Below are positions 1,518 to 62,230 of a stretch of 63,636 nucleotides of DNA, in pieces. The notes beneath the pieces were generated by a model that was not told the DNA's origin, did no database searches, and worked only from the letters and a program-made list of their open reading frames with translations. The position numbers were made by a program, and so were the translations under genes. Each line of letters opens with the position of its first letter. Within the stretch, counting starts at the first letter, position 1. The stretch is from IMG/VR virus record IMGVR_UViG_3300027370_000004, positions 1 to 63,636 of that record; one strand, written 5' to 3'. The stretch comes from a virus.

Positions 1518-1682
1518 TCAATTCTTGCTTCGCGCTCTATCGTGCGGAATTTCAAAGCCTTTCGGCAACGGTTCGTTGCTAACGTATTTTTGCGCCTTCT
1601 CTACCGTGGTAAAAAGCCTGTGATTGACGATCTCGCCCTTGGCGTTGAGCATTTGGACGAGTTGGATGATTGCGCTAGACAT
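1518..1682 (-). CDS. Small unknown protein coupled to terminase (54 aa)
   Basis: The ATG at 1682 overlaps the last 8 nt of the large-terminase gene. The product starts MSSAIIQLVQMLNAKGEIV and ends HDRARSKN. It looks like a compact alpha/beta fold with an amphipathic N-terminal helix, followed by a segment resembling a substrate-annotation tag (FTTVEKAQKYVSNEPLPKGF). No transmembrane segment or cysteines. I do not recognise a family. The terminase overlap, codon use and a clean stop before the next ribosome site support it being real. Confidence 0.65.
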   Translation of the reverse strand: MSSAIIQLVQMLNAKGEIVNHRLFTTVEKAQKYVSNEPLPKGFEIPHDRARSKN

Positions 1683-3153
1683 TCATCCAGCCTAAGTCTT
1701 CTTGCCCAGCGTACCTGAACTCCGGTTTCGGCTCAGGCTTCCTCGGCGCGGCGATCTTCACTTGGAATGTCATCGCCAGCATATCCCCGCAGTCAGGAGA
1801 ATTCAACCCTCTCGCCTTCATGTCATCCTTGGATTCAAGTTGTATCTGGCTCTTTGAGGAAAAATAGTACTCAGGTCCGCACAAATCAGAAGCTAGTTCA
1901 GGGTCGTCAGGAATCTCCGCTCCGGTCTGTAGCCATTCTCTCATCAATCCCCAAAGCTCGGACCTGCGGTTAAAGTACGCCTGCTCATTGTCTGCCTTGG
2001 CTCCCGGCGCGTATTCAAACAACCTCGTCCCAAATCCTCGGAACCTGACTTGATCGACTACCCCAGCCCCCACCCCGATTCCGTCAATGATCGTCGCGTC
2101 CGGCGTCTCTGACTGGATAAACTCAATCAGTCGCTCGGCCAGCTGCACCGTACTGAGGCCACGATACCGCGCCAAAATCTTTGCTTTCCGGCCCTGCCGG
2201 GTTCCAACGACTGCCTGATCGTCGCCATACCTCGCTACATCGCAGCTAAGAATCTTGGGCAAGGTCTCATATCCGACTGCATGATATTTGCGGCAGTTTT
2301 CCACTATATCCGATGGAATGAACTGGGAACTCCCAGACCTCGGAAACTCCCCCTTGACGCGCACTCTGACAAAGTCCGAATCCTCGCCGTAGTCATCAAT
2401 CCACTTCTGAATCTGAGCCTTGTTCGTGCCTTCTACTGTGCGAGAGTCGATCTGAAACGTCTTCCAGCGATGTTTAAACTTGCCGAAACACTCTCGAAAA
2501 CGCCCTGTGTTCTGCGTAGGATTGCCAAACACCAGCCAGATGATTTCCGTGTTCTCATCCGTCATGGCGCCTTCGGCGGTCTCGTAAATCTTGTCCGAAA
2601 TGGCTGATCCTTCATCGAACATCAGAACTACGCGCTTGCCTTCGTTGTGCAAGCCAGCGAAAGCTTCTACGTTATAGTCAGACCACGGGATTAAGTCCGT
2701 CCGCCACGTCGCCTCAGAACCTTTTGCCTTGATGGACGTTATCGCCAAATCCCACCAGTGCGCGTTTATGCTCATCCGGTACCACTTGAATAACTCCGGC
2801 TGAGTTTTAGTGTCTAACTGCGTCTTGGTGTTGGCGGTTATGACGATCTTGCAGTCTCGGCAGGTACTCGAAGCCCACTCATCAATCCAGCTAATCAGGC
2901 ATGACTTCCCTACACCATGGCCGGATGCGACCGCGATCTTGCAAGGCTCAAATCTCGTAGCTGGATTCCTTAAGTGAGCGCCGATGTGATTCAGAATCTC
3001 GCTTTGCCAAGGTCGCGGGCCTCCATGCTTCGCGATCTCCGCGCCAGTTTCACCCCACGGGTATGCATAGTTCACAAATCCTTCAGGATCGTGCCGATAG
3101 GAGTAAATGCGCTCAACTAACTCTTGCTCAAGCTGCGGATCGACTGCAATCAC
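1675..3153 (-). CDS. terL: Terminase large subunit (492 aa)
   Basis: Motor and nuclease that cuts concatemeric DNA and pumps it into the prohead through the portal. The N-terminal ATPase shows Walker A SGHGVGKS (77-84), Walker B VVLMFDE (175-181) and the coupling motif GNPTQ (210-214). The C-terminal RNase H-like nuclease shows Asp305 in SCDVARYGDD, Asp357 in IIDGIG and Asp454/457 in SPDCGDMLAM. All key residues and the full length are present. Its start overlaps the small-subunit stop by 4 nt (ATGA), so the two are translationally coupled. Downstream late genes continue leftwards. Confidence 0.97.
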   Translation of the reverse strand: MIAVDPQLEQELVERIYSYRHDPEGFVNYAYPWGETGAEIAKHGGPRPWQSEILNHIGAHLRNPATRFEPCKIAVASGHGVGKSCLISWIDEWASSTCRDCKIVITANTKTQLDTKTQPELFKWYRMSINAHWWDLAITSIKAKGSEATWRTDLIPWSDYNVEAFAGLHNEGKRVVLMFDEGSAISDKIYETAEGAMTDENTEIIWLVFGNPTQNTGRFRECFGKFKHRWKTFQIDSRTVEGTNKAQIQKWIDDYGEDSDFVRVRVKGEFPRSGSSQFIPSDIVENCRKYHAVGYETLPKILSCDVARYGDDQAVVGTRQGRKAKILARYRGLSTVQLAERLIEFIQSETPDATIIDGIGVGAGVVDQVRFRGFGTRLFEYAPGAKADNEQAYFNRRSELWGLMREWLQTGAEIPDDPELASDLCGPEYYFSSKSQIQLESKDDMKARGLNSPDCGDMLAMTFQVKIAAPRKPEPKPEFRYAGQEDLGWMNV

Positions 3154-3515
3154 TCCGAAACCTCTGTGCGCTCCGCCGCTTTCTTCATTCTCTCTGCAAG
3201 GGTCAGCGTTATTTCTCCGCTATGTTCCATTGCCTGCACTACTTTGCCCTCGATACGCTCCGCCGCCTCTTTCAATGTCAGCACTGATCCCATGCGACCG
3301 GAAAGAATTGTCTTAAGTATCGCCGCTTCAATTAGTTCCAAGTTGCCAGAATCGGCGAAGATGCGCTCATAAATCTCAGTGATTGGTGTCTTTTTTGGCC
3401 TGCCACCTGGGTTACGTACCTCTCCGGGTTGAATCTGTGTAGCCTTCCCTACAGAGGGGTCAACCGTATAGCCAAATCCATGCTTTTTCTGAGGCGAATT
3501 TTGCTCATCCGCCAT
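3150..3515 (-). CDS. terS: Terminase small subunit (121 aa)
   Basis: Immediately upstream of, and ATGA-coupled to, terL. The N-terminal third contains QPGEVRNPGGRPKKTP, a basic Gly/Pro stretch typical of phage small terminases and DUF5681-type proteins, and probably contacts DNA. The remainder is helical (ITEIYERIFADSGNLELIEA), which fits an oligomerising helix bundle that recognises the packaging site. It is the first clear gene of the late leftward block. The call rests on position plus the GRPKK motif. Confidence 0.85.
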   Translation of the reverse strand: MADEQNSPQKKHGFGYTVDPSVGKATQIQPGEVRNPGGRPKKTPITEIYERIFADSGNLELIEAAILKTILSGRMGSVLTLKEAAERIEGKVVQAMEHSGEITLTLAERMKKAAERTEVSE

Positions 3516-3569
3516 AACTTAAAATCCTCACAATGTGAGCCTTGAATTCTGGGACGGAGAGATCGGATT

Positions 3570-54770: not shown

Positions 54771-55556
54771 CTAGTACAAATACGAGATTGGCCCGACGTT
54801 AACCGTGAACGTTGTCGGCACCGTGATGTTATTGGGCGGAGAGCCAGCAGTTCCGGTCAGAGTTTCCGTTACTACATCAAGCCATGTCGCGGTCTTGATG
54901 GTTTGGAAGTTGTCTGTGGTTCCGTTGGTCTGATAGACGATGAAATACTGCCCAGATGCGAGGACGGTTGGCTGAACCCATGCCCTTTGCTGGAAGGCCG
55001 AGGCTCCCGATGTGACAGCGGCGGCGCTCGATGCAATGAGCGTTCCGCTATAGTCGTAGAGGTACACGGCATTGGAATCGGCCCCCACCGTGGCTCCATT
55101 CAGTACCGCAGCCCCAGTGCTGACCATGAGCCGATCCACCTTAACATCGGCCACGAACAGGCCCCCAGCGGTATCGGCGGTCGAGTTCCCCAATCCCGTC
55201 AAGCTGCCCTGAATCCCGGTCGCCGTAAAGAAGCGGAAACGCCCCTGCGTGGACGGAAATGTGGTCTGGGCATATTGCGGGAAGTACTGCGGAAGCCCGA
55301 ACCACACAATCGCCCCATTGCCGTGATTGGCGACCTTGGTTCCGTTCATGCCCCGCTGCACAGAAGCAGTCAAGGTTGTTGAGTTTACGGATTCCACCAC
55401 CATAAGCTCGGAATCCACTAACAGCATGGTTTGGATGCCGCCACCAGCCGTAGGAGCCGCCATTCCTGTCACTGAGGCCATAATGACGTTGTTCTGTGCA
55501 TTTGGCCCCGAGTTCAGAAGCGCGGTGAGTGTCGTGCTAGTCAAATTTGTTGCCAT
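54771..55556 (-). CDS. Structural protein downstream of coat (261 aa)
   Basis: AAGGAG before MATNLTSTTLTALLNSGPNA. Beta-rich throughout, with the pattern LLVDSELMVVESVNSTTLTA, VQRGMNGTKVANHGNGAIVW, LFVADVKVDRLMVSTGAAVL and a terminal domain FTVNVGPISYLY. Similar proteins lie next to coat genes in many podoviruses and are probably head decoration or minor head proteins. Its ribosome site lies inside the end of the GIY-YIG gene, showing insertion of that gene. Confidence 0.75.
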   Translation of the reverse strand: MATNLTSTTLTALLNSGPNAQNNVIMASVTGMAAPTAGGGIQTMLLVDSELMVVESVNSTTLTASVQRGMNGTKVANHGNGAIVWFGLPQYFPQYAQTTFPSTQGRFRFFTATGIQGSLTGLGNSTADTAGGLFVADVKVDRLMVSTGAAVLNGATVGADSNAVYLYDYSGTLIASSAAAVTSGASAFQQRAWVQPTVLASGQYFIVYQTNGTTDNFQTIKTATWLDVVTETLTGTAGSPPNNITVPTTFTVNVGPISYLY

Positions 55557-56232
55557 TCAAAGTCTCCTTTAGCAGTTTCCTGCCTATTCCGTTTTTCAGG
55601 CTAGTGACAAGGTTTTGTATCGTTAACCCTGTGCCTCTGCAAGCTGCCCGCATGGATTCATACACGACGCCATTGAATTCCAGGGGCTGCACATTGTGCC
55701 GATCAGAACCCTTGGGAGCAGATTCGCGCATTTTCCTTTTAGTCTCTTCACTGTGCGCCATCCCCTTGTTCCATGCTGGCTTCCCCTTCCTCGAACTGGC
55801 GTCGGAAAGTTTCTTCCGAATATCGTCCGACAGGGGTCCAGTTTTCTTGCCTTTGTTCCAAGGTTCGCGAGTTTTGTTGCGATACGACTCCAAGGCACGG
55901 GCAGCAATTCTAGCCCGCGTTTCAGGAGAGCATACCCGTCGCGCTCCCTTGCCTCCATCGGTAATGTTGTAACCGTTAGGGGCAAGTGTCCCATGAGACT
56001 TGATCGCCTCAGCCTCCATCCGCAGGAGTTCTTCATAGTCGCTCGATTCTCCGATACATTCGATTGAAAATGCATCCATCCCGTGCTTGCGGATGGCACA
56101 CGCAATCGCCATATCCTTGCGACCACATTTCGCTGCATACAGATGGCGGCTGACTCGTTTGCTGATTGCATTGACACTGGTTCCGATGTAAGCTTTGGCG
56201 CTTCGCCTGTGAGTTAGCTTGTATAACCACAT
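55537..56232 (-). CDS. GIY-YIG homing endonuclease with NUMOD domains (231 aa)
   Basis: The N-terminal GIY-YIG domain is MWLYKLTHRRSAKAYIGTSV (YIG at 15-17), NAISKRVSRHLYAAKC, EELLRMEAEAIKSHGTLAPN-GYNITDGG. Linker modules of NUMOD3 type follow: NKGKKTGPLSDDIRKKLSDA and NKGMAHSEETKRKMRES. A NUMOD1-like C-terminus reads PLEFNGVVYESMRAACRGTG. Free-standing, inserted between the coat gene and its downstream neighbour. The first GIY tripeptide is changed to LYK but other key residues are present. Confidence 0.92.
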   Translation of the reverse strand: MWLYKLTHRRSAKAYIGTSVNAISKRVSRHLYAAKCGRKDMAIACAIRKHGMDAFSIECIGESSDYEELLRMEAEAIKSHGTLAPNGYNITDGGKGARRVCSPETRARIAARALESYRNKTREPWNKGKKTGPLSDDIRKKLSDASSRKGKPAWNKGMAHSEETKRKMRESAPKGSDRHNVQPLEFNGVVYESMRAACRGTGLTIQNLVTSLKNGIGRKLLKETLNGNKFD

Positions 56233-56283: not shown

Positions 56284-57510
56284 TCAATTCGCGATGCGCA
56301 CGCACAATTCGGGATATTTCGTGACGAACCCGTACAAAACGTCTAAGCGGCACGGTGCCCGGTCCTCGAAAATGTCGTAGGCGCGAATCATGCGGATCGA
56401 CATGCCGATTTCCTTGGAGGCCACTCGTTCTCCGATGTCCACTCCGCCGTAGAGAGGCAAGTCCGCGCACCCCATAGCGAAAGCTTCATCAGAGACGAAC
56501 ATCAAGCCGCGCAACGAGCTGGTCGAGGCAGCGCCTTGAACGTTGATAACCATTCCCGTAGTCGGCGATTGAGTCACCGTCTGGAACGGTCCTGCGGTCA
56601 CAATGCCGAAGCCGGAAGGCCCGGAAATCGGGATCGTTGCGTTACCCGAGCCATCTGCCGTCACGTTTGCGGTCACAACAAACTGCCGCAACGCTCCGGT
56701 AGACTGCCTATTCTGCGGATTCACCGCCAAAACGCCCGAAGTCAGGGTCCCAATGGAAATCACGTCGCCCAAGTTCAGGACTGCATTGTTCGCCGTCCAG
56801 CCGTTGGTGATGAGCGAGTTTCCTGTCTGGCCGGAACCGTTGACTACTGGAGACCCGCCCTGCTTCCCGACTGTCTGGAGGCGCACGTTCTGGTCAATCA
56901 TCGAATCCACGCCCAAACCGAGACCTTGACGGCCTGAGTTGTACTGTTCGCGGATTTTGTCCGAGGCTTGAAACAAGCCTGCCTGCGCATCCACCAAGTT
57001 GGTATTTTGCGCGGGCGACATGATGTTTACCCGGTCCTTGAAGGGTGCAGCTTCTTCGTTCAGCCGTTGATTGGCTTGCAAATAAATCAGCCGCGTCGAG
57101 GGTACTGTTCCCGGCGTGCCGATTTCGTTGTAGACGTTCACATACTGGCCCAAGGCGTCGTAGTCGATCATGTTCGACATGGTGGCCACCTGCGGGCGGA
57201 TGAATCGCTTCGAGAAGTCATCGACTTGGAGGCCAAGTTCCTGCGAAGTGAACGCAATCGCGCACTGCCGTTGCTGGGTCAGGACAAGAGGTACGCTGGT
57301 TTCAGTCGCATCTTCCAACTGAAGAGCCTGCCCCAAGGACGTAAGGAATCGAGGCGGCTTACGGAGGTTGAGAATGTTGCCGATTTTCGCGCCTTCGACT
57401 CCGAACCTGTCGTCGTATTGGCGATCAAAGTGCTTGGCCGCATTCAGTTCATTCTCAAGAATCATCAGAGCTTCTTGAGTAATCATCAGCGGTGTTAAAA
57501 GGGTATTCAA
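56284..57510 (-). CDS. P22-type major coat protein (408 aa)
   Basis: HK97-fold coat subunit. It begins MNTLLTPLMITQEALMILEN, ELNAAKHFDRQYDDRFGVEG-AKIGNILNLRKPPRF, as in the P22 gp5 family, and ends DLPLYGGVDIGERVASKEIG-MSIRMIRAYDIFEDRAPCRLDVLYGF. Length is close to P22 gp5 (430). A variable insertion (residues 225-300, Gly/Asn/Thr-rich) is where P22 has its I-domain. Scaffold gene lies directly upstream. Its last 48 residues are repeated in the protein at 61778. Confidence 0.93.
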   Translation of the reverse strand: MNTLLTPLMITQEALMILENELNAAKHFDRQYDDRFGVEGAKIGNILNLRKPPRFLTSLGQALQLEDATETSVPLVLTQQRQCAIAFTSQELGLQVDDFSKRFIRPQVATMSNMIDYDALGQYVNVYNEIGTPGTVPSTRLIYLQANQRLNEEAAPFKDRVNIMSPAQNTNLVDAQAGLFQASDKIREQYNSGRQGLGLGVDSMIDQNVRLQTVGKQGGSPVVNGSGQTGNSLITNGWTANNAVLNLGDVISIGTLTSGVLAVNPQNRQSTGALRQFVVTANVTADGSGNATIPISGPSGFGIVTAGPFQTVTQSPTTGMVINVQGAASTSSLRGLMFVSDEAFAMGCADLPLYGGVDIGERVASKEIGMSIRMIRAYDIFEDRAPCRLDVLYGFVTKYPELCVRIAN

Positions 57511-57544: not shown

Positions 57545-58555
57545 CTAAGAGTACCGGGCCTTGTCACGCTGCGCGATCTGAGTTTTGCGGGCACGGATGT
57601 AGTCATCGGTACCCTGCTTGCTCAAATCTTCGAGGGTTAAAGTGCCTCTCGCGGAAGCCCCCGTCACTGGTTTATGGGCCGGGGGTGCGGTACTCACGAC
57701 TTTTTTGGCAGGAGTTACAGCTTTAGGCTTGGCTTCCGATTCCAGACCTTGAGAAATTCTCCCGATTGCGGCGAATCCCATCGCCGGAGACATTTGCACC
57801 AAGGCAAGCGCCTCATCGAGATTTCGCACAAGATAATTGGTCACAGCGGGGCCATTTGGCAGTTCTTTGATAAGTTCAATGATTGGGACCGGGAGCTTCA
57901 TGCCGGCTTTCGCGGCAGCGTTCACGGCTTCATTGAAATCAGGAACTTCCTCTTGGAACTTAGTAGCAGCCTCTTTGTAACCTGCGTCTCGTGATTCCTC
58001 AATTTCTTTCGCCTCTCGCTCTTGCGCGGATTGATCGCGTTCGGCGAGTCTGGCTTGAATCTTCTGCTCGGCTGTCCAGTCGATCAGGGCCTCGTTGTAC
58101 TCGGTCCAATCCTTGTACTTGGTCCCAATCTCACTCTCAAGGGGCTTGCCTGCAATCTCGGTTTTCGGCTTCTCTTGCGGCGTCTCAGCTTTTGGGGCCA
58201 AACGCTGCTCGATAGCGTCAAACTTTGCGCGGAATTCCGACAGTTGTTGCTCCAGCCTGTCGGCCCGGTCTTTCTCTTCGCCTCTTTCCCTTGTGAGTTT
58301 GTCGATTTTCTTCTGAAAGCCGCCCTTGCTCTTCGGTTTCTCCTGCGTAGTCTCCGCTTCCGGCGCGGATTCGGTTTCAACCTGCTCAGTTTCCTGAGCG
58401 GTCGCGGGTGTTTCGGGTTCCACTGTTTCAGTCGGTTCTGGTTTAACTTCCGGCTTTACTTCGGGGTTAGGAACTCGTTCACGCCAGTTTTCAGACACAG
58501 CATGATCGACTTCTTCCTGAGTGGCAGTGGTGGAAGCTACGATAAAGTCAGGCAT
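57545..58555 (-). CDS. Scaffolding protein (336 aa)
   Basis: Directs coat assembly, then leaves. Starts MPDFIVASTTATQEEVDHAV. An acidic, Pro/Glu/Lys repetitive N-terminus (PEVKPEVKPEPTETVEPETP) is followed by a charged coiled coil (QKKIDKLTRERGEEKDRADR, LEQQLSEFRAKFDAIEQRLA) and a helical C-terminus ending in a basic coat-binding tail (DYIRARKTQIAQRDKARYS). Located between portal and coat as in P22-like phages. Identity rests on position, composition and tail. Confidence 0.85.
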   Translation of the reverse strand: MPDFIVASTTATQEEVDHAVSENWRERVPNPEVKPEVKPEPTETVEPETPATAQETEQVETESAPEAETTQEKPKSKGGFQKKIDKLTRERGEEKDRADRLEQQLSEFRAKFDAIEQRLAPKAETPQEKPKTEIAGKPLESEIGTKYKDWTEYNEALIDWTAEQKIQARLAERDQSAQEREAKEIEESRDAGYKEAATKFQEEVPDFNEAVNAAAKAGMKLPVPIIELIKELPNGPAVTNYLVRNLDEALALVQMSPAMGFAAIGRISQGLESEAKPKAVTPAKKVVSTAPPAHKPVTGASARGTLTLEDLSKQGTDDYIRARKTQIAQRDKARYS

Positions 58556-58851: not shown

Positions 58852-59217
58852 ATGTGGTTGCCGATAGCATCTGCCCCTAAAAACGGCTCCCTGATTGTCT
58901 GCTGGTCCTCTGAATGGCGAGATGAGCCATACTTACTTTGCTGGAAGACCAATCCTCGAATTGCGTACGCTCACACACGGTTTGGAATGGACGAGTTACT
59001 GGATACCTATTTTGGCGATCCAGCCGAGATGGATGACTATGACTTTGCTAAACGTAATGGCGGCCCAACTCACTGGCACCCTCTATCCCCATTACCTCTT
59101 AGGGTTCCGGCTGATTCTCTTGCGCCTGCTGCGCCATCTGCTGCTCATGTTGCTGACCCTGCGCCGTCATGTCCGCTTCATGATCCTGATCCGACTGCTG
59201 AGAATCCGCCTGAGTGA
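58852..59217 (+). CDS. DUF551-like protein, end antisense to the portal gene (121 aa)
   Basis: MWLPIASAPKNGSLIVCWSS matches the W-x-P-I-x-S-A-P-K-x-G start of DUF551, and THWHPLSPLP matches its end (residues 73-83). Between lie WRDEPYLLCWKTNPRIAYAH and the tract DTYFGDPAEMDDYDFAKRNG. The last 38 residues are Pro/Ala-rich and read the portal gene backwards (119-nt overlap), so they may be an acquired tail after loss of the original stop. Function of the family unknown; a common phage accessory gene. Confidence 0.78.
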   Translation: MWLPIASAPKNGSLIVCWSSEWRDEPYLLCWKTNPRIAYAHTRFGMDELLDTYFGDPAEMDDYDFAKRNGGPTHWHPLSPLPLRVPADSLAPAAPSAAHVADPAPSCPLHDPDPTAENPPE

Positions 59218-61396
59218 CCGCTTGCTGCGCGGCCATGCCCTGCTCGTGCTCCTGATCGACGGCCTGCATTCCGACTTCATGGGCTGACTGATGCAGGATC
59301 TTCCACTGGTCGATTTCCCATTGCAGGCGTTCTCTTGCGGCCTGAGCCTTCGTGGTAATCTCTGCCACAGTGACCTGCGTCTCCGCCTGTAATCGAGCGA
59401 TAGCTTGCCTGCTGGCTTCCTGCTCCTTGACGGTCGCCAGCTTGCCTTGCTGCTCGACCTGCTTGGTCTGGATTATCTGCGAGGCGTTCTTGAGTTCGGT
59501 CGCTAACTGCTGATGCTGCTGCATTAACGTCGAAAGTTCGCTCTGCATCCGCGCTAAAGTCTCTTCTGGGTCCGATCCATCTTCCGGACCTAAGATATTC
59601 GGCGGAATCGTGCGCTTAATTCTCTCTGCGATCTCTTTTGCCAGCGGAATATCCATCTGGCCTACCATGAGGTCTCCGCAGACATGCAGCATTTCCGGAT
59701 AGGCGGCAATAAGTTGCTGAATCTCCGCTGCCGCCTGCTGCCTCTTGGTCTGGAACGACGGCCCTACGTCTACCGTTACGTCATAGCGCCCAACACCAAT
59801 GTTGTAGATTTTCTTGATGGCCTTCGCGTCAAGTGCGTCCTGCAATGCTTCCTGAGCCTGTTGCTGGGCTTCCTGCGGGTCTCCGCCTTTCGAGTTGTAA
59901 ATTCCTACATGGTCCACCGTGCCATCCGGCTTGATAATTCTCTGCACTCGCGGCGCGTCATAGATTATCGGTATCCACGTCAGAATCCCGCGAATCAACT
60001 CTCGTTTTGACCTTGCCAGATTGTCCGAGAAATTAGCCGTAGCGACGTTGCCCTGCCTCTGGAGGGCCACAATTGCCTTGCCAGACTGGTCAGGCGTCTT
60101 CTGGCCCAATGAAGGATCAAAAAGCCCTGTAACCGCCTTCATGTCGGTATCGGCGGTGACGAGCAGTTGAGACATTGCTTGAATAGGAGGCTCCGCCGTC
60201 TCGCGCTGAGGCCGTTCCGGAGCCTGAGGGTCGGGATTGTAGTGCAAAACCGCCAAATCGCCAGTATTCGCCGACTGCCACTCTCTTTCAAATCCTTCCG
60301 TCTGCCGCGCCGTGGCGATAAATGGCATTTTCGGCGCAATCGCAACCATGTCCGTAGCTTTTGACAGATGATAGTTATAGGCTCTCGCTGGATCTTTCGC
60401 CGTCCTCACTAATCCCGCGAGGTAGGGCTTGCCATCGACATTCAAGTTGTAGCCGAGCACCGGAACGGAGGGAATGACCTTGCCGGGTACTTCATGTTCC
60501 TCCAGCTTCCGCATCGCATTCATCAGAGTCCACATGACTTTGGGCTTTTGGCGTTTGCGAGTGTTGGCTATCTTTGCGCCTTCGGGGAGTTTTTCAAGTC
60601 CGACGACCGTCGAGCCGTCCTGAAGCTGATAGAGCGTCTCTTCTGTATATTCGATGTGGTAGTACTCGGCAATCCTGATCACATCTTTGCTGATCCACTG
60701 AGAAGCCGTGTCTCCTGTACTCTTGAACTGCTCCAGAGACGACGCAGCAACCATATCCTTGCCGTACTGTGCGGTGTACTCCTCAATTGGCATATCCTCG
60801 ACAAAGAATCGCCACTTCGCGTCGATCCGCAGAGGATGTCTGGCATTCGGATCGTCATAAACCGTGAACGGATTCGGCACGGCGCCGATCTTGATTTCCT
60901 GCGCCCAAGGATTGTCCGGGTCGTCGTCTTCGTACTCTGACCAATAGCGAAGCCATCCCAGACCACCAATCACCATGTGCTCAAACGAAATATCGTCCGC
61001 AACTTCCGCATCGCATTGCACTTCAATATGCCTCACGATGCCTTGCAGAATTTCCGCAGTCTCAGGATCGGAGTCAGAACCTACTGGATTGATCGTCGCC
61101 GAGGGCCTTTGCTGCCTTTGCTCGTTTGTGACCTGATTGCAGAACGCCGCCGTGCGGTTGATCGTCAGCGCGACTTTCTTCCCTAATCTGCGCTTTACTT
61201 CCTCCGGCCACTGCTGCCCAATCCTAAATTTGAAATCTTCTAAAGCCTCCCGCCTCCAATCTGCCGTAGCATCCGCAGACGCTTTCCAGCGTTTCAGGGC
61301 AAGGTCAATGAAGGCCCTATCTTTCTGGGCTGCCAGTTGCTCTGGAGTAGGTCCTTTTTTCGCGGGAGTCCCGCTGGCGTTATGCTGAGGCTTCAT
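59099..61396 (-). CDS. P22-type portal protein (765 aa)
   Basis: Dodecameric ring through which DNA enters and leaves. N-terminus MKPQHNASGTPAKKGPTPEQ, then family blocks: ALEDFKFRIGQQWPEEVKRR, VALTINRTAAFCNQVTNEQR-QQRPSATINPVGSDSD, SFEHMVIGGLGWLRYWSEYE, VTGLFDPSLGQKTPDQSGKA. A long C-terminal coiled coil follows, Gln-rich (TLMQQHQQLATELKNASQII), as in P22 gp1, whose C-terminus forms a barrel. Full length. Its start overlaps the GroES-like gene by 17 nt. Confidence 0.94.
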   Translation of the reverse strand: MKPQHNASGTPAKKGPTPEQLAAQKDRAFIDLALKRWKASADATADWRREALEDFKFRIGQQWPEEVKRRLGKKVALTINRTAAFCNQVTNEQRQQRPSATINPVGSDSDPETAEILQGIVRHIEVQCDAEVADDISFEHMVIGGLGWLRYWSEYEDDDPDNPWAQEIKIGAVPNPFTVYDDPNARHPLRIDAKWRFFVEDMPIEEYTAQYGKDMVAASSLEQFKSTGDTASQWISKDVIRIAEYYHIEYTEETLYQLQDGSTVVGLEKLPEGAKIANTRKRQKPKVMWTLMNAMRKLEEHEVPGKVIPSVPVLGYNLNVDGKPYLAGLVRTAKDPARAYNYHLSKATDMVAIAPKMPFIATARQTEGFEREWQSANTGDLAVLHYNPDPQAPERPQRETAEPPIQAMSQLLVTADTDMKAVTGLFDPSLGQKTPDQSGKAIVALQRQGNVATANFSDNLARSKRELIRGILTWIPIIYDAPRVQRIIKPDGTVDHVGIYNSKGGDPQEAQQQAQEALQDALDAKAIKKIYNIGVGRYDVTVDVGPSFQTKRQQAAAEIQQLIAAYPEMLHVCGDLMVGQMDIPLAKEIAERIKRTIPPNILGPEDGSDPEETLARMQSELSTLMQQHQQLATELKNASQIIQTKQVEQQGKLATVKEQEASRQAIARLQAETQVTVAEITTKAQAARERLQWEIDQWKILHQSAHEVGMQAVDQEHEQGMAAQQAVTQADSQQSDQDHEADMTAQGQQHEQQMAQQAQENQPEP

Positions 61397-61781
61397 TCTG
61401 AAGTGCTATCGGAATAAACTGCGACAACCTGTCCTTGCTCAATTTTGGCCGCGGCCCGTAAATCCCCGCAATATCCCCTTCACGGATCATTAAGCGCGGC
61501 CCATCTTCAATGTCGGGATAGCAGTTTCCCGCGCCGGGTACATCCACAATATCGCCCACTTGCACGCCCTGAACTTTCAACCCAATCGAGAGCACGCGGC
61601 ACTTTCTGCCTTTGTAGTGCGAGAGTTCAGGCGGTTCCAGCCCACTGCTCATTAGTGCGTCTCTGTGGGCTGGAGCCATAACAATTAAACCTTCACCCAT
61701 CTCGCCGGGATTCAGGCGTTCGACTAACAACCGCTTGCCGAGTGGACGGAACTTTGCAGGATCTATGCTGAGAAGGTTCAT
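61380..61781 (-). CDS. GroES-like co-chaperonin (133 aa)
   Basis: FRPLGKRLLVERLNPGEMGE matches the P-L-x-x-R-x-x-V opening of GroES. The mobile-loop region is at about 24-38, with GLIVMAP (GG-I-V-L in GroES). Then RVLSIGLKVQGVQVGDIVDV-PGAGNCYP and PRLMIREGDIAGIYG match the VGDxV and E-x-D-I-x-A-I closing. Phage co-chaperonins such as T4 gp31 replace host GroES to fold a coat protein too large or special for it. Position directly before portal supports a coat-folding role. It has an insertion and a 22-residue C-terminal extension relative to bacterial GroES. ATGA overlap with the upstream gene. Confidence 0.82.
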   Translation of the reverse strand: MNLLSIDPAKFRPLGKRLLVERLNPGEMGEGLIVMAPAHRDALMSSGLEPPELSHYKGRKCRVLSIGLKVQGVQVGDIVDVPGAGNCYPDIEDGPRLMIREGDIAGIYGPRPKLSKDRLSQFIPIALQNEASA

Positions 61782-62230
61782 AAGGAAAAAAGCATGTCAA
61801 AGCGCATCTGGTAACGATCTTCCAGGATGTCGTAGGCGCGTAGTACTCTAATACATACGCCAGCTTCCTCATCGCACATACGCTCAGAAATCTCCAATCC
61901 AGCGGGAAGCGGAAGATTGAAGCACGTAATTCTTTTCTCAGGTGCGTGCTCGACGATGCGCTGCACCAGTTTGTCAATTTCAGGGTCTACGAATCGCTGC
62001 TTGAAGTCTTCGGGATCGCGGTCGAAGTCGGTGGTTGATGGCCAGTTCGGTTCTATATTCGGCGCCCAATTGCTGACTTGAGCGCCAGGATAGGGTAAGT
62101 CGCTTAAGAGCTTGTCTGAACGGTCTTCGTCCATCCGCGACGAAATTCCAGCTTTCCGCATCGCTGACAGCACTGCCACCAGCGCCATTTGAGCTACTTG
62201 CCATCCGTCGATTCGCGTCATTGTCGCCAT
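61778..62230 (-). CDS. Protein with a coat-protein C-terminal module (150 aa)
   Basis: Residues 103-150 (from CFNLPLPAGLEISERM) align without gaps to the last residues of this phage's own P22-type coat protein: 23 of 48 positions identical, including RAYDI, EDR and the LPL and ER anchors. The first 100 residues do not resemble coat and are unknown (DGWQVAQMALVAVLSAMRKA, WPSTTDFDRDPEDFKQRFVD). It is therefore a coat-derived module on a different N-terminus. Possible roles: minor capsid vertex protein, decoration that mimics coat contacts, or a relic. ATGA-coupled to the co-chaperonin. Confidence 0.82.
   Translation of the reverse strand: MATMTRIDGWQVAQMALVAVLSAMRKAGISSRMDEDRSDKLLSDLPYPGAQVSNWAPNIEPNWPSTTDFDRDPEDFKQRFVDPEIDKLVQRIVEHAPEKRITCFNLPLPAGLEISERMCDEEAGVCIRVLRAYDILEDRYQMRFDMLFSL

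Follow-up and report, generated by a model that had tools for sequence, protein, structure and literature searches.

A small gene beside the portal gene of a phage with a P22-type coat suggests an overlooked, coat-derived accessory of head assembly

A virus record of 63,636 bases, analysed here over its whole length (the window), carries close to its portal gene a small separate gene whose product, P0001, ends like the phage's own coat protein. The question raised by this locus is what this protein is in relation to the coat, and what it might do in building the virus shell. The reading preferred here, held at about even odds (roughly 0.5), is that P0001 is a mini-coat, that is, an old and diverged coat paralogue that would be reduced to P-domain material and would act as an accessory of head assembly.

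The mini-coat gene and its neighbours

The whole head-gene cluster of the window lies on the minus strand, and its genes are as follows.

61778..62230, minus strand: mini-coat gene (P0001, 150 aa), ATG start, TGA stop
61380..61781, minus strand: GroES-like co-chaperonin gene (phrog_3188, E=9e-4; Cpn10, E=0.016)
59099..61396, minus strand: P22-like portal gene (PF16510, P22_portal, E=5e-153)
57545..58555, minus strand: scaffolding protein gene (phrog_8865, E=9e-33)
56284..57510, minus strand: P22-type coat gene, 408 aa, TTG start (PF11651, E=9e-22; phrog_283, E=2e-56)

The sequence-only reading had placed the ORF at 61778-62230, which was correct, and the gene is read from 62230 to 61778, on the same strand as the coat gene. 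The neighbours were also as that reading had described them, with the GroES-like gene (phrog_3188) running from 61781 to 61380 and the portal gene (P22_portal) from 61396 to 59099. The mini-coat ATG overlaps the stop codon of the upstream ORF (TGATG), and in the window the mini-coat TGA and the GroES-like ATG share bases (ATGA); these two genes are translationally coupled and lie ahead of the portal gene. The coding score was positive in the mini-coat frame only (0.130 bits/codon), all other frames being negative.

The gene encoding the terminase large subunit (window 1678-3153, minus strand; phrog_2, E=8e-35) and the mini-coat gene are at opposite ends of the record. An exact terminal repeat of 16-400 bases was looked for at the contig ends and none was found; should the genome prove circular or circularly permuted, the gene for the mini-coat would fall within the terminase-portal interval in the window too. 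Directly downstream of the coat gene, an ORF (window 55537-56232, minus strand) has, by its sequence alone, the look of a GIY-YIG-type homing endonuclease, and a relative of it occupies the same place (L004:5579-6283) in L004, the nearest covered relative, whose coat is 86% identical.

Coat-like segments of P0001

The segments of P0001 that were compared with the coat, and their counterparts, are listed below.

61781..61924, minus strand: mini-coat residues 103-150, corresponding to coat 348-395 (P22 gp5 about 363-413, second P-domain segment)
56326..56469, minus strand: coat residues 348-395, counterpart of the mini-coat C-terminus (BLASTP)
61916..62011, minus strand: mini-coat residues 74-105, probable spine-helix segment, corresponding to coat 97-128 (P22 gp5 about 92-128)
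57127..57222, minus strand: coat residues 97-128, spine helix, counterpart of mini-coat 74-105 (sequence match)
62120..62197, minus strand: mini-coat residues 12-37, possible N-arm-like helix (third-best ungapped diagonal, colinear)

The last 48 residues of P0001 had been said to align without gaps to the coat with 23 identities, and this was reproduced by BLASTP against own coat 348-395 (23/48 identical, 33/48 positive, ungapped, E=4e-14), with both RAYDI and EDR found in the P0001 C-terminus. The segment scored 124, while none of 2000 shuffles exceeded 46, and an HMM built from 160 related coats picked up P0001 at E=3e-10 among 47,677 ORFs; chance similarity of P0001 to the coat was ruled out by BLASTP, shuffles and this HMM. 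Against the coat sub-profiles, none of the reversed decoys fell below E=0.1. In the public profiles P0001 was placed in the same C-terminal register with weak scores, namely at positions 364-408 of 423 in Pfam P22_CoatProtein (PF11651; E=0.32, 10.2 bits vs the gathering cut-off of 24, which P0001 therefore missed) and at positions 324-368 of 385 in the PHROG major head protein (E=0.026).

The invariant positions of the coat C-terminal segment, as seen in a comparison of nine related coats, are all retained in P0001. The C-terminal motif is coat-specific, a pattern scan of IMG/VR having given almost only full coats, and its distance from the protein end is 17-22 residues in the full coats from that scan and 4-5 residues in the proteins of the window, L113 and L026. 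The P0001 C-terminus is nearest to coats of related phages, scoring 137 against the L098/L099 coats vs 124 against its own coat.

Between the C-termini of mini-coat and coat, identity at codon positions 1, 2 and 3 was 57, 74 and 35%, DNA identity in the region was 55%, and the same codon was used in only 10 of the 23 identical residues. Third positions are thus randomised and second positions conserved, indicating that the copy is old and has been selected as a protein. A recent duplication or degenerate coat fragment was ruled out by this codon-position pattern together with the homologues in other phages. The sequence-only reading had allowed for a recent degenerate fragment absent from all relatives; this did not apply, as comparable genes were found in other phages with P22-like coats. 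That P0001 is a functional coat-derived protein is supported on these comparisons.

The first 100 residues had been described as unrelated to the coat, which held for residues 1-70, where no relatives were detectable, but not for residues 74-105, which match coat 97-128 without gaps (two-sequence E=0.004). The score of this segment, 42, was reached in 0 of 2000 shuffles, the segment having been chosen post hoc, and in 43 of 2000 shuffles (p about 0.02) when the whole region 1-100 was considered. An HMM search gave a domain E=0.004 at Z=1, and in the spine search P0001 ranked 4-5 among 1242 near-portal ORFs with E=0.32. The match falls at the conserved coat positions DF..RF..P, and the spine and C-terminal matches are colinear with the coat, with no P0001 residues for coat 129-347. 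With moderate confidence, residues 74-105 are probably the coat spine-helix segment. For residues 12-37, N-arm homology was at chance level (1523 of 2000 shuffles reached the score) and was rejected.

To map these segments onto domains, the window coat was aligned to P22 gp5 (public record), which placed the matched segments of P0001 at about 92-128 and 363-413 of gp5. The P-domain of P22 gp5 comprises residues 31-33, 79-127 and 358-416, the A-domain 128-221, 346-357 and 417-430, and the I-domain 222-345 (PMC9965877). To within a residue, neither P0001 match extends beyond the P-domain; the A- and I-domains that separate the two in gp5 have no counterpart, and P0001 ends close to the point where the coat chain leaves the P-domain. 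Lacking A- and I-domain and falling below the Pfam cut-off, P0001 is on present evidence best classed as a paralogue derived from the coat and not as a coat protein. It resembles a coat with an internal deletion more than a coat tail to which a new domain has been fused, though the support from the spine match is moderate.

Structure prediction was of low confidence. The first AlphaFold (AF2) model of P0001 had a mean pLDDT of 41, and a second, built on an alignment that included pieces of the coat spine, had a mean pLDDT of 56. A helix at residues 9-26 and three C-terminal strands were present in both low-confidence models; a long helix at 73-95 appeared with low confidence in the second model, and it is not independent support since the alignment contained the coat spine pieces. 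A Foldseek search of the PDB with the P0001 model gave a best E=0.27, with the P22 procapsid at rank 43 (E=2), and a PDB profile search with the mini-coats gave weak unrelated matches only.

Mini-coat relatives and coat pieces near portals

Direct searches of IMG/VR and GenBank phages with the whole P0001 gave no orthologue, and scans of the genome collection for the mini-coat gave no matches. Such direct whole-protein searches are evidently insensitive, since relatives were found by other routes: loci were gathered through coat alignments and every ORF in them was searched, and whole-record searches were also productive. The search for comparable genes in phages with P22-like coats, which the sequence-only reading had proposed, led to L250 and, with weaker matches, to L104, L113, L026/L170 and L213.

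The best homologue, L250:3887-4375 (162 aa; L250 is G033:14000-25500, from a 46-kb contig), was matched by P0001 in tblastn at E=6e-6 over residues 66-149, covering spine and C-terminus, and it was recognised by the coat C-terminal HMM (E=2e-10) and by phrog_283 (E=2e-4), with a spine-to-C-terminus spacing nearly as in P0001. The start of the L250 mini-coat gene overlaps the stop (ATGA) of the GroES gene ahead of it (phrog_3188, E=2e-6), and the pair lies downstream of a terminase gene; the order of GroES and mini-coat genes is opposite in L250 vs the window, both being ATGA-coupled. The L250 protein scored 120 against the coat of phage PAE2 vs 91 against its own coat. Judged by their sequences, the window and L250 proteins form a mini-coat family, in which a spine-like helix is linked to the coat C-terminus over a short spacing and the gene is coupled to GroES.

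Among the weaker relatives, an ORF in L104 was found by the L250 protein (E=3e-5) and adjoins the terminase gene, divergently. L113:3401-3925, between terminase and portal, ends in the coat C-terminal motif (HMM E=3e-4), and the corresponding interval of L026/L170 encodes a 134-aa protein that was found at E=0.006 with a profile of P0001, L250 and L104, the decoys being at or above 1.1. L213:7576-7923 (116 aa) is ATGA-coupled to the portal gene and combines a spine-like stretch with the terminal motif and an own-coat match; it appears to be the weakest case. Most of the mini-coat relatives lie within the terminase-portal interval, and their N-termini are diverse. In L004 an unrelated ORF lies upstream of GroES, and a short non-coat match to P0001 was found in only 2 of 50 whole records, with one more found via the L250 protein, indicating that the mini-coat gene is patchy in its distribution. 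Twin-arginine (Tat-like) RRxF starts were seen in L113:3401-3925, L113:1772-2029, L121:295-735 and the L104 minus-strand ORF 3128-3526; among 1444 near-portal ORFs, 3 were Tat-like and all 3 were coat-like. PF10518 matched the L113 protein at E=0.003, below the cut-off.

ORFs were compared one by one with the coat encoded on the same contig by masked and ungapped scoring, gapped comparison being dominated by low-complexity regions, and the reversed coat served as control. A score of at least 50 was reached by 6 of 1444 near-portal ORFs, the window mini-coat being one of the six, and by 0 with the coat reversed (Fisher 0.016). Elsewhere it was reached by 6 of 15,609 ORFs (Fisher 2e-4 vs near-portal), all of these being small numbers.

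Other coat-like pieces were observed near portals. A 44-aa ORF (L106:4615-4746, plus strand) lies just before the portal gene, its start codon overlapping the GroES stop (ATGA), and its peptide MNKLELEIDEFFDRFVAPAMTSLFDALEERG is similar to the spine helix of the coat (HMM E=1.2e-3 among 43,268 non-coat ORFs). L121:295-735 and L121:5263-5733 (plus strand), near the portal gene, resemble coat N-terminal (N-arm) pieces (E about 0.01); one ends in VEKINRQYDRSFGVAGAPFPNVPPRI (own coat VKKFNRQYDSSFGVAGA), and the second begins in the manner of the coat N-terminus and has GKIGDPLNIRKPARFR at its end. A small protein between portal and coat (L027:8467-8883, L029:1637-1951, L035:8884-9198, L084:6407-6727) has a weak ungapped likeness to the coat F-loop/E-loop, which may be chance, or the protein may be a separate head protein.

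Possible roles and comparison with known systems

The steady proximity to portal and terminase genes and the GroES coupling in two phages suggest a role in head assembly or coat folding. In the proposed mini-coat, the spine helix would run straight into the C-terminal strands of the P-domain, with neither the axial A-domain nor the I-domain insertion, and this internal deletion is probably shared across mini-coats. Such a protein may bind coat subunits or scaffold via the normal P-domain contacts; with no capsomer centre possible, it would fill, cap or block coat sites during head assembly. It could fill the portal-vertex periphery, a place in which the portal would collide with A-domains, or it could help coat folding and assembly together with the co-chaperonin. 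The C-termini of P0001 and L250 are not closest to their own coats, which argues against strict co-evolution or close co-assembly with the same capsid.

The nature of the protein itself allows other explanations. That a new fold was fused to a captured coat tail, so that the first 100 residues would be unrelated to the coat, is somewhat doubtful: residues 1-70 have no detectable relatives, the relatives differ in their N-termini and the spine match by itself gives moderate support (region 1-100, p about 0.02), but this match is colinear and at the conserved DF..RF..P, and in the L250 homologue both spine and C-terminus align, at an almost unchanged distance from each other. A non-functional remnant of a coat gene duplication would explain the patchy presence and the absence at this place in L004; it is very unlikely in view of an open frame with codon bias and tight coupling on both sides, the retention of every invariant C-terminal coat position with third codon positions randomised and second conserved, and the homologues in L250 and L104.

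Of a functional mini-coat, several more specific roles can be imagined. A portal-vertex or minor capsid subunit, the main idea of the sequence-only reading in a more specific form, would be part of the virion, either surrounding the portal or filling capsomer edges; it would agree with P-domain architecture lacking the A-domain and with a gene that is beside the portal gene in the window, ATGA-coupled to it in L213 and near portal or terminase in others. This role is nevertheless doubtful, given C-termini in P0001 and L250 that are closer to other coats than to their own, the patchy gene distribution, and the Tat-like N-termini of some relatives, which would be odd for a capsid part. An assembly regulator, poison or decoy would instead cap coat interfaces, affecting nucleation or size, or distract a host factor that recognises coat; a conserved coat contact element kept without the capsomer centre, the short nearby ORFs with other coat pieces (the L106 spine peptide and the L121 N-arm pieces) and the excess of near-portal own-coat matches over reversed controls (6 vs 0 at scores of at least 50) are in its favour, but the near-portal coat-piece ORFs are few and P0001 had no match in the defence-system library, and such a role seems unlikely. 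Low probability is also given to a chaperonin-linked helper that would assist coat folding alongside the GroES-like protein encoded next to it. In its favour are the ATGA overlaps that directly couple mini-coat and GroES genes in two divergent phages, the gene order being opposite in the two, and the L106 spine-like peptide that also starts on a GroES stop, whereas the L113, L026 and L213 copies were not seen beside GroES and co-chaperonin genes occur near portals with no mini-coat detected, e.g. in L004 and L014.

In its furthest form, the mini-coat reading would describe an undescribed family of A-domain-less mini-coats in phages with P22-like coats, paired with a phage co-chaperonin, that takes coat positions at the portal vertex (a penton periphery without a centre) or controls portal-first nucleation, with the other near-portal coat-piece ORFs as further members; this is quite improbable as a whole. 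How tailed phages and herpesviruses place a 12-fold portal at exactly one 5-fold vertex, and start assembly there, is a long-standing question, and a coat relative without the portal-clashing domain, encoded beside portal and co-chaperonin, would if true give a testable handle on the portal vertex. A coat-derived accessory family beside GroES would be notable even if the mini-coat were a folding helper or inhibitor. In a limited search of the open-access literature, which leaves absence unproven, no coat-derived accessory family adjoining phage GroES was found.

The T4 vertex protein gp24 is a paralogue of the major capsid protein gp23 with a special place in the shell. Its likeness to the mini-coat would be in the way of working only, since gp24 keeps the complete HK97 fold and the mini-coat does not. 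The decoration protein Dec of phage L has an OB-fold (PMC6449081); Dec and the mini-coat would both be small accessory proteins of phages whose coats are P22-like, but Dec has its own fold while the mini-coat appears to be coat-derived, and no decoration family in Pfam or PHROG was matched by P0001. The scaffolding protein (phrog_8865) would share with the mini-coat the part of a non-coat assembly factor from the same operon, but it is a separate gene in the window (57545-58555) with no sequence relation to the mini-coat. A further comparison is with the P22-type coat itself (P22 gp5, Sf6 gp5; PF11651, phrog_283), which is of the HK97 fold and has about 400 aa against 150 aa in a mini-coat without A-domain, I-domain or recognisable E-loop, and whose last 13-14 residues are absent from the mini-coat. 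The C-terminal 48 residues of the mini-coat, with 48% identity to its own coat, and probably the spine helix are common to both, and both shared segments are P-domain elements.
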